Assembly (NCBI RefSeq): GCF_029338255.1
Contig: NZ_CP119787.1
Location: 2,232,001 to 2,296,000 of the forward strand
Reading direction: 5' to 3'
DNA length: 64,000 bases
DNA from: Haloarcula halobia
GTDB lineage: Archaea; Halobacteriota; Halobacteria; Halobacteriales; Haloarculaceae
Part shown: positions 28,179-59,446 of the stretch, in pieces
Position numbering within the stretch: position 1 is the stretch's first letter
Layout of the letters: each line of letters starts with the position of its first letter
Program-made: the position numbers and the translations under genes
The notes under the pieces: model-generated
What the model saw: only the letters and a program-made list of their open reading frames with translations
What the model was told of the DNA's origin: nothing
Database searches by the model: none

Positions 28179-28982
28179 ATGTCCCTGCTACCCTCGCGCG
28201 GTCCCGAGGCGAGCACCTCCCAGGACGGCGAACTGGAGATCGTCGGCGTCGACGAGGACGTCTCCGCCGTCATCGAAGCGCTCTCCTCCGAGACGGCCCG
28301 CGAGATACTCAACGCGGTATACGACGACCCGGGAACGCCCTCCGAACTGGCCGACCGGCTCGGGATGTCAATCCAGAAGGTCTCCTACCACCTCGAGAAA
28401 CTCGAAGAGGAGGAGCTCATCGCCGTCGCCGGCACCCGCTACTCCGAGAAGGGCCAGGAGATGAAGGTGTACCAGCCGCCCGACGACCCGCTCGTGCTGT
28501 TCGTCGGGACCCGTGATCGAAAGCGGTCGCTCCGCGCGCTCGCGAAGCGACTCGTGCCCGTCGTCGGCCTCCTCACGGCCGCCAGTGTCGCCGTCCAGGT
28601 CATCACCGAGGGTGTCCCCTTCGTCGGGCAGTCCGCGAGCGGCGACGGCGGTGAGGCCCCAAGTGGGGGCGGCGACGCCGGCGCAGACCCCGCGCTCTCG
28701 ACGACTGCCGAGACCACAGCCGAACCCACGGCGACGGCGACGCCCAGCGGCGACGACGGCGGGGTCAGCATCGCCGAGGCGACGGAGACGCCGACGCCCA
28801 CGGAGGCCCCGACCGAGACCCCAGTGCCCGAACCGACGACGACGCCCACGGACGTCGCCACCGAACTCGCGGAGGTGTCCGGCGCCGCCGGCGGGTTCGA
28901 CGTCCCGCCGGGCCTCGTCTTCTTCCTCGGCGGCCTGCTGGTCGTCGCCGTCGTCGCCGCCGTCTGGGTGTACGACGTCTGA
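28179..28982 (+). CDS. Membrane-anchored ArsR-type winged-helix regulator
   Basis: 267 residues. The N-terminal winged helix (about 28-95) reads ALSSETAREILNAVYDDPGT, MSIQKVSYHLEKLEEEELIA and GTRYSEKGQEMKVYQP. A first membrane helix VPVVGLLTAASVAVQVIT (about 120-145), then a Thr/Pro/Glu-rich linker of about 90 residues (TATPSGDDGG, TPTPTEAPTETPVPEPTTTP), then a final helix LVFFLGGLLVVAVVAAVWVY. With two spans, the linker would be outside the cell and the DNA-binding domain inside, so an extracellular or envelope signal could control transcription directly (inference). This layout recurs in haloarchaea; target genes are unknown. Confidence 0.88.
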   Translation: MSLLPSRGPEASTSQDGELEIVGVDEDVSAVIEALSSETAREILNAVYDDPGTPSELADRLGMSIQKVSYHLEKLEEEELIAVAGTRYSEKGQEMKVYQPPDDPLVLFVGTRDRKRSLRALAKRLVPVVGLLTAASVAVQVITEGVPFVGQSASGDGGEAPSGGGDAGADPALSTTAETTAEPTATATPSGDDGGVSIAEATETPTPTEAPTETPVPEPTTTPTDVATELAEVSGAAGGFDVPPGLVFFLGGLLVVAVVAAVWVYDV

Positions 28983-29247
28983 CGGTCGCTCAAACGCCGA
29001 TTTTACCGTAAGGTGGCCTTTTGATACTCCCCTCCCTACGTCTATCTGCGCCGTCGACGGGGTCGGGAACCGCCGCCCTGGTTCCCCGCTCCCCGACGAT
29101 GGCCGCACCTGCCCGAGCCATCGCCGTTCTCTCCGGAACGGCCCCTTTCCCCCCACTCCGCTGGCGCCCCCACGCTGGTCCCTGGCATCCCAGTGTCACC
29201 CTCCACCGACACAAACGCCTATTCCCGTCCGGTCGTTCTCTCCCGCT

Positions 29248-58331: not shown

Positions 58332-58607
58332 TCAGAGGTCGACGTACTGGTCTTCCCAGTCCCGCCGGGCGTCGATCTCGCGGCGGCCGCGACGGGTCAA
58401 CGTATAGAAGTTCGTCCGCCGGTCGCGCTGTCCCTTCTCTACGAGGCCCTTGTCGACGAGGGTATCGAGGTTCGGGTACAGTCGACCGTGGTGTATCTCC
58501 TTCTCGTAGTACGCTTCCAGTTCTTCCTTTATCGCGAGGCCGTGTGGCTCTTCTCGCCCGGAGATGACGTAGAGGAGGTCTCGCTGGAATCCCGTGAGGT
58601 CGTGCAT
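58332..58607 (-). CDS. PadR-family transcriptional regulator
   Basis: 91 residues, a winged helix. MHDLTGFQRDLLYVISGREE, then EEPHGLAIKEELEAYYEKEI (the PadR G..i...l), HHGRLYPNLDTLVDKGLVEK (recognition helix and wing start) and FYTLTRRGRREIDAR. It lacks the long C-terminal dimer helix of full-length PadR and resembles the short archaeal type. The target is unknown. The 214-base gap 58608-58821 upstream contains its promoter region (AT-rich near 58620-58672), an imperfect dyad gtta...taac at 58637-58658 that might be a self-operator, and the amphi-Trp promoter. Confidence 0.92.
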   Translation of the reverse strand: MHDLTGFQRDLLYVISGREEPHGLAIKEELEAYYEKEIHHGRLYPNLDTLVDKGLVEKGQRDRRTNFYTLTRRGRREIDARRDWEDQYVDL

Positions 58608-58821: not shown

Positions 58822-59097
58822 ATGCCCGAAGAAGTGCTGTTCGAGACCGAACGTGTCATGGACCGAAGCGCCGTCGCCGACTACCTCCGCTCGCTCGCGG
58901 ACAACTTAGACTCGGGGTCGGACGTCACACTCCGCGCTGGCGACCAGTCGGTGACGCTCGACCCGCCGGGTCGCGTCGAGTTCGAGGTCAAAGCGGAACG
59001 CGAGGGGCCCGTCGACGGCGACGGCGAACTGAGCATCGAGGTCGAACTCGAGTGGCCCGAGAACCCGAGCGACGACGGTGAACTGAGTATCGAGTGA
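58822..59097 (+). CDS. amphi-Trp domain protein
   Basis: 91 residues. The domain is recognised by MPEEVLFETERVMDRSAVAD, then YLRSLADNLDSGSDVTLRAG, VTLDPPGRVEFEVKAEREG and the closing amphipathic strand ELSIEVELEWPEN, containing the name-giving Trp. Tandem ELSIE units at the end (GDGELSIEVE and DDGELSIE) may be a small duplication. The family is widespread in haloarchaea; function unknown. The stop is followed within 40 bases by the hairpin pair described below. Confidence 0.9.
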   Translation: MPEEVLFETERVMDRSAVADYLRSLADNLDSGSDVTLRAGDQSVTLDPPGRVEFEVKAEREGPVDGDGELSIEVELEWPENPSDDGELSIE

Positions 59098-59130
59098 GAA
59101 CGCTGTGGCTACCGGATTTCGAGCGAAGTA

Positions 59131-59217
59131 AGTGGAAAGCGGCCGCCGAAAATGCGGCCGCTTGCCGCCCTGAATTGGTCCCCGCTGACGCTTCGGCCCT
59201 CCAAGCGAAGCGTCACA
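59131..59217 (-). ncRNA. Candidate structured small RNA (two strong hairpins behind a TATA box)
   Basis: On the minus strand a TATA-like ACTTTTAAGT (59239-59248) is followed about 25 bases later by hairpin 1, TGACGCTTC/GAAGCGTCA with a 12-base loop (59186-59215). Then a 22-base unpaired stretch with accaattcagg leads to hairpin 2, AAGCGGCCGC/GCGGCCGCTT with a 7-base loop (59137-59163), and then tttcc. Both stems appear perfect. No reading frame of quality covers it. The layout fits an RNA of about 85 bases with a 3' terminator stem. Hairpin 2 could instead, or also, terminate the amphi-Trp gene. Confidence 0.45.
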
Positions 59218-59238
59218 TGGAAGGAAGTGGGAGAATAA

Positions 59239-59248
59239 CTTAAAAGTA
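59239..59248 (-). promoter_or_regulatory. TATA box of the candidate small RNA
   Basis: Minus-strand ACTTTTAAGT, about 25 bases from the outer base of hairpin 1, in a spot with no protein gene start downstream. Confidence 0.4.
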
Positions 59249-59299: not shown

Positions 59300-59446
59300 T
59301 CAGATGTGCTCTTCCTCCAGGACCCACCCCAGCGCCCGCTTGTAGTGTGTAAACATCATCCTGACGCGTTCGTGTCGCATCTCCTCGCTGTCCAGTTGCT
59401 CGGCCAGGAACTCGTACTGGTCCCTGATCTCGGCCTCTGAGCGCAT
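59300..59446 (-). CDS. 48-residue conserved-looking small protein
   Basis: From ATG 59446 the reading is MRSEAEIRDQYEFLAEQLDS, then EEMRHERVRMMFTHYKRALG and WVLEEEHI, stop at 59300. It looks like a genuine small helical protein: a heptad-like helix with regular charge alternation and Trp/Tyr near the end, and codon use like the neighbours (G/C third positions). Similar short helical proteins are widespread in haloarchaea. Function unknown. It is divergent from the zinc-ribbon gene, with 58 bases between starts. Confidence 0.7.
   Translation of the reverse strand: MRSEAEIRDQYEFLAEQLDSEEMRHERVRMMFTHYKRALGWVLEEEHI

Follow-up and report, generated by a model that had tools for sequence, protein, structure and literature searches.

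Small RNAs of haloarchaea have been called almost unconserved, since 22 of 27 studied genes are confined to H. volcanii (PMC3956466). The same work describes hts10 (HVO_2213s), a predicted RNA that was seen by sequencing and is present in 18 other haloarchaeal genomes; it is one of many sRNAs with mild phenotypes, and its deletion has small growth effects (PMC3956466). The published accounts of hts10 that we found give no family, no structure, no invariance, no targets and no mention of the copy near fen that is called copy 1 below. Two other described RNAs are relevant for comparison. Haloferax rancRNA_s194 is a haloarchaeal intergenic RNA of about 100 nt that binds ribosomes and is conserved only in Haloferax. 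Methanosarcina mazei sRNA162, from another order, is an archaeal sRNA that acts in trans and base-pairs through two domains (PMC3510493).

The RNA that we describe here is likewise intergenic and of similar length to s194, but it occurs in nearly all Halobacteriales, and it may act by base pairing in trans as sRNA162 does. It lies on the minus strand of the window, the whole stretch of 64,000 nucleotides of Haloarcula halobia that was analysed, and the interval 59216-59129 is almost certainly a genuine RNA gene. The features of the window to which we refer are the following.

29071-29137, plus strand: candidate target site, downstream of the HVO_1552-like gene (28179-28982, plus) and upstream of the MBL-fold hydrolase gene (29248, plus)
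58332-58607, minus strand: PadR-like winged-helix gene downstream of the RNA (Pfam PadR, 1e-17)
58822-59097, plus strand: amphi-Trp gene, convergent with the RNA, an optional neighbour (Pfam Amphi-Trp, 1.9e-32)
59129-59216, minus strand: small RNA gene, predicted transcript about 88-92 nt with its 5' end near 59216 (covariance model 111 bits, E 1.5e-20)
59137-59163, minus strand: hairpin 2, a putative stability/termination hairpin followed by the pyrimidine-rich tail UUCCACUUACUUC; variable sequence, pairing kept
59163-59154 and 59146-59137, minus strand: stem 2 strands AAGCGGCCGC and GCGGCCGCUU, 10 bp
59164-59176, minus strand: linker block C, AAUUCAGGGCGGC, exact in 129 of 205 copies
59185-59164, minus strand: linker GCGGGGACCAAUUCAGGGCGGC between hairpins 1 and 2, 22 nt
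59177-59203, minus strand: proposed antisense core, UGGAGGGCCGAAGC (block A) plus GCGUCAGCGGGGACC (block B), complements of which recur in haloarchaeal noncoding DNA
59186-59215, minus strand: hairpin 1, a 10-bp stem with the ten-base loop CUUGGAGGGC, near-invariant
59215-59206 and 59195-59186, minus strand: stem 1 strands TGACGCUUCG and CGAAGCGUCA, 10 bp
59245-59238, minus strand: TATA element TTTTAAGT of the predicted promoter of the RNA, 29 nt before hairpin 1
59300-59446, minus strand: 48-aa ORF just upstream of the RNA, found upstream in 53 of 95 named loci

A sequence-only reading of this DNA had proposed a compact structured RNA gene with no ORF, made of a minus-strand TATA box, a perfect 9-base stem, a conserved-looking single-stranded stretch and a perfect 10-base stem followed by T-rich sequence. 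All of these elements are found in the window, with one correction: the first stem exists, but its length is 10 bp. The minus strand folds with -47.4 kcal/mol (z -4.1), and none of 200 shuffles was equally good. Mechanical ORFs overlap the RNA interval. However, loop spacers of CTT, CTTT or TCT differ by one base between species, and such shifts break every frame; hence no ORF is conserved through the RNA. Comparative anatomy shows a stand-alone noncoding gene of about 90 nt, with its own predicted TATA promoter, a structured transcript, a terminator formed by hairpin and pyrimidine tail, and no conserved ORF, as is expected of a stand-alone trans-encoded sRNA.

The pattern of conservation was analysed in 205 distinct copies, most of which were selected by the loop and the 3' strand of hairpin 1 only. 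The 5' strand GACGCTTCG, although it was not used to select most of them, is exact in 201 copies, and in three of the four that deviate an A is replaced by G so that a G-U pair is retained. A TATA-like element lies 18-40 nt upstream in 197 copies, and in 158 its distance to the GACGCTTCG stem strand is exactly 29 nt. The hairpin 1 loop spacers in this set are mostly CTT, CTTT or TCT. In 200 of the 205 copies the stretch following the linker forms a stem of 7 bp or more, and several of the pairs in hairpin 2 show compensatory changes on both sides. Since the 5' strand of hairpin 1 is exact while stem 2 compensates, hairpin 1 is fixed by its sequence and hairpin 2 by its pairing only. The linker belongs with hairpin 1 to the near-invariant part, so the single-stranded stretch of the sequence-only reading is indeed conserved; in Halorubrum-type copies the linker diverges after GGGGACC.

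A covariance model (R1) built from 18 sequences has matches in 383 of 392 Halobacteriales genomes and in 343 of the 345 good ones, and the genomes that it misses belong to three families of small genomes. It finds no copy in the roughly 240 genomes of the phylum that lie outside the order; in the phylum sample of 295 genomes, all 52 matches fall in Halobacteriales. A BLAST search against 40 related genomes gives the same picture: most families have the RNA, and the part that matches is 84-98% identical. The search for covariance in other haloarchaea had been suggested with the original proposal, and its outcome, together with the fold, bears out the view that such an arrangement would hardly arise by chance. 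Rfam 15 has no match in the window at the gathering threshold, and a permissive search likewise returned nothing; the best score below threshold was for CC1840 (21.2 bits against the 50 required, E 0.43). Judged by these searches, the RNA is an order-wide family absent from Rfam 15, and being absent from Rfam it is also missing from routine annotation. An RNA that 99% of the good Halobacteriales genomes carry, its core near-frozen, is the opposite of what has been said about unconserved haloarchaeal sRNAs.

Most genomes, including the present one, have a single copy. Two copies are usual in Haloferacaceae (Haloferax, Halorubrum), and a few genomes outside that family carry two or three. The order at copy 1 is 48-aa ORF, RNA, PadR-like gene, all on the same strand. 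Of the 95 named loci to which the neighbourhood counts refer, 58 have the PadR-like gene no more than 1.1 kb from the RNA, and only 15 have the amphi-Trp gene. Neither the PadR-like gene nor the 48-aa ORF is present at 29 loci, second Haloferax copies included; the RNA is therefore independent of the 48-aa ORF/PadR locus. The idea that only hairpin 2 might be conserved, as the terminator of the amphi-Trp gene, fails on two grounds: it is hairpin 1 and the linker that are near-invariant while hairpin 2 varies, and the amphi-Trp gene is often absent beside the RNA. The 48-aa protein is conserved across the order at about 66-100% identity, and no Pfam or NCBIfam model matches it. The 91-aa PadR-like regulator is linked to the RNA gene and unusually conserved; beside copy 1 its identity across the order is about 76-98%.

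In four named Haloferax genomes copy 2 follows genes for an E1-alpha dehydrogenase, an Lrp-like protein, TrkA, a second Lrp-like protein and a DUF protein, and precedes an htr transducer gene. In H. volcanii, HVO_2209 is oadhA4, which is given as an E1-alpha gene with no partner (PMC8305020). Counting along the gene order from HVO_2209 places copy 2 at HVO_2213s. Hence synteny identifies the second copy of Haloferax as the H. volcanii transcript hts10; this identification is made by gene order rather than by sequence identity, and in the four genomes the RNA occupies this locus, from oadhA4 to htr. HM4_V of H. mediterranei, which adjoins htr18-1, agrees with the location (PMC5852579). Thus hts10 has the same locus as copy 2 and is reported as transcribed, but it is listed as 161 nt. 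It has been detected and deleted already, and never recognised as a member of an order-wide family. Copy 1 of Haloferax is near fen (HVO_2873), which puts it at about HVO_2868-2869. HVO_2908s of the EV paper (PMC10927574) was considered for copy 1 and rejected, since copy 1 adjoins fen. For H225.2R (HVO_1727s2), another conserved sRNA, we found no link to the RNA.

What could such an RNA do? In the BLAST search of the 40 related genomes, weak matches piled up on the loop and the 3' stem strand of hairpin 1. The block A 14-mer TGGAGGGCCGAAGC has 66 exact matches in 41 genomes. Of these, 38 are the RNA genes themselves and 28 are extra, against a single match for the reversed pattern. The block B 14-mer GCGTCAGCGGGGAC has 60 matches, 22 of them extra, again against one for the reversed pattern. 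About half of the block A extras come from a single orthologous position, the leuB upstream region of Haloarcula, and four come from one tandem repeat. As these inflate the extras, and orthologous sites are not independent, the number of independent noncoding loci is about 14. In 13 of the 14 the complement shares its strand with the gene before it and lies 5-320 nt past the stop codon of that gene, with gene calls around the sites being heuristic; among coding matches the strand bias is not significant (9 to 5). Sites chosen by block B often have GGAGG(G) alongside, which suggests that pairing would proceed in blocks. A contiguous 23-mer target with up to three mismatches is not enriched (5 extra matches against 2 in the control), and a 1.26-Mb sample of the own genome has no general excess of 8-10-mer complements. 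The signal consists of separate blocks at particular loci.

The most consistent candidate sites, as we infer them from sequence, are located after the HVO_1552-like gene and upstream of leuB in Haloarcula. The former gene encodes a winged-helix protein with a match to Pfam HVO_1552_C. In the window, the duplex of the site with the RNA core has a predicted energy of -51.0 kcal/mol (z -2.4, reached by 1 of 200 shuffles) when the first 160 nt are taken and z -2.0 over 268 nt; in the 160 nt adjoining the MBL gene the duplex is not significant. In the HVO_1552-like 3' regions of nine unselected Haloarcula genomes, complements cover 338 bases compared with 106 (sd 45) for shuffled cores (z 5.2, 0 of 1000 shuffles), and the sense strand of the same regions gives no signal (z 0.4). 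In 17 other genomes these 3' regions reach z 3.5 (2 of 1000 shuffles), but outside the family of Haloarcula the signal is weak, with z 2.5 for the complement and 1.9 for the sense strand. In Haloarcula-type regions the duplexes have predicted energies of about -51 to -66 kcal/mol, with z from -2.3 to -7.0 in 9 of 10, and the block C complement GCCCTGAATTGG is present downstream of the gene in two Haloarcula genomes. The gene that follows is an MBL-fold hydrolase in Haloarcula and a convergent phosphoesterase in four other genomes. Since the next gene differs, what these loci share is the region 3' of the regulator gene.

Haloarcula genomes not chosen for such sites have exact complements of 11-16 nt upstream of leuB, among them the own genome with 13 nt. 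For 18 leuB leaders none of 400 shuffles did as well, with ten of the 18 carrying a selection bias. The sites are found in Haloarcula only; the leuB upstream regions of other families have no long matching sites. The block A complement lies in parts, for the most part unpaired, of stems that differ between species, and the structured upstream region of Haloarcula leuB may possibly be a separate leader regulatory element. In three of these leaders (L286, L293 and L297) the stems change between species and an internal 14-nt sequence stays fixed.

These observations suggest that the RNA acts as a housekeeping-level, trans-acting antisense sRNA on noncoding parts of mRNAs, a reading to which we give a probability of roughly 0.6. 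Complementarity to the mRNA strand exceeds that of composition-matched controls, and it is weaker outside the family of Haloarcula; the idea of targets was formed after the matches had been seen. In the proposed mechanism, the G-rich loop UGGAGGGC would nucleate on CCCUCC in the mRNA. Pairing would then spread into the 3' strand of hairpin 1, CGAAGCGUCA, and into the linker (GCGGGGACC, AAUUCAGGGCGGC). The complements mostly follow a stop codon or fall between co-transcribed genes. Putative targets are the region after the HVO_1552-like membrane-anchored winged-helix regulator (before the MBL-fold hydrolase in Haloarcula), the leuB upstream region of Haloarcula, and further sites that are lineage-specific. 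Pairing in the cell, repression or stabilisation of the target and the participation of a helper protein such as Lsm are putative. A need of the RNA to pair along its length, as proposed, would account for a stem sequence that is not free to drift.

Antisense action is the best-supported mechanism, and its main rival is a housekeeping ribonucleoprotein RNA, in which the invariant hairpin and linker would be recognised by a protein or by the ribosome and the complementarity to mRNAs would be incidental. Near-invariance of both stem strands over the whole order and the single copy in most genomes would suit such an RNA. So would the Shine-Dalgarno-like word GGAGG in the loop, and several abundant Haloferax sRNAs are ribosome-associated (PMC6104027; PMC12482152). 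Nevertheless, complementarity to the two rRNA operons is below the shuffle level, a result compatible with ribosome binding as well as with its absence; the Halorubrum-type linker diverges after GGGGACC; and the rival does not predict that noncoding DNA should carry block A and block B complements on the mRNA strand. We regard this explanation as unlikely.

An even less likely one is that the conserved sequence is a local element of the PadR-like gene, either a DNA operator built on the 10-bp inverted repeat or a cis-acting padR leader. The proximity of the gene at 58 of the 95 loci would be explained, as would its adjoining the RNA still in Halarchaeum, where it is divergent. Yet the 29 loci devoid of both PadR and the 48-aa ORF would be left unexplained. 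The distance from RNA to padR varies from 250 to 900 nt with a terminator-like hairpin in between, the repeat has spacers of unequal length in different species (CTT/CTTT/TCT), and conservation is asymmetric, running through loop and linker. The noncoding matches could also be relics of reverse-oriented duplicated RNA genes instead of targets. Blocks A and B, and at times C, are co-linear in them, as they would be in relics; but relics are not expected to prefer the mRNA strand at 13 of 14 loci, and block order differs at some loci (L429). Of all the alternatives this one seems to us the least probable.

Target sites turn over between genera. A more general suggestion can be made, tentatively and with rather more doubt than conviction. 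The antisense RNA may derive from an ancestor of most Halobacteriales and have kept its sequence frozen as a general regulator, reading a CCCUCC-plus-GGUCCCCGCUGACGC code in mRNA 3' regions and intergenic leaders and invading with one hairpin strand; its targets would have been rewired between genera while the RNA remained fixed. The RNA comes with named candidate targets, which makes the use of sRNAs and 3'-UTRs in haloarchaea, whose mRNAs are mostly leaderless, testable in Haloferax and Haloarcula.

Two minor observations concern pieces of the core at other places. Three Haloarcula genomes (L287, L291 and L409) have block A in sense orientation ahead of a carotenoid-oxygenase-like gene, the sole locus that breaks the strand rule. 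In one genome, short tandem repeats with units of about 43 and 32 nt are organised around pieces of the RNA core at L407 (G026:C14:1-130) and L406 (G026:C8:137889-137998).
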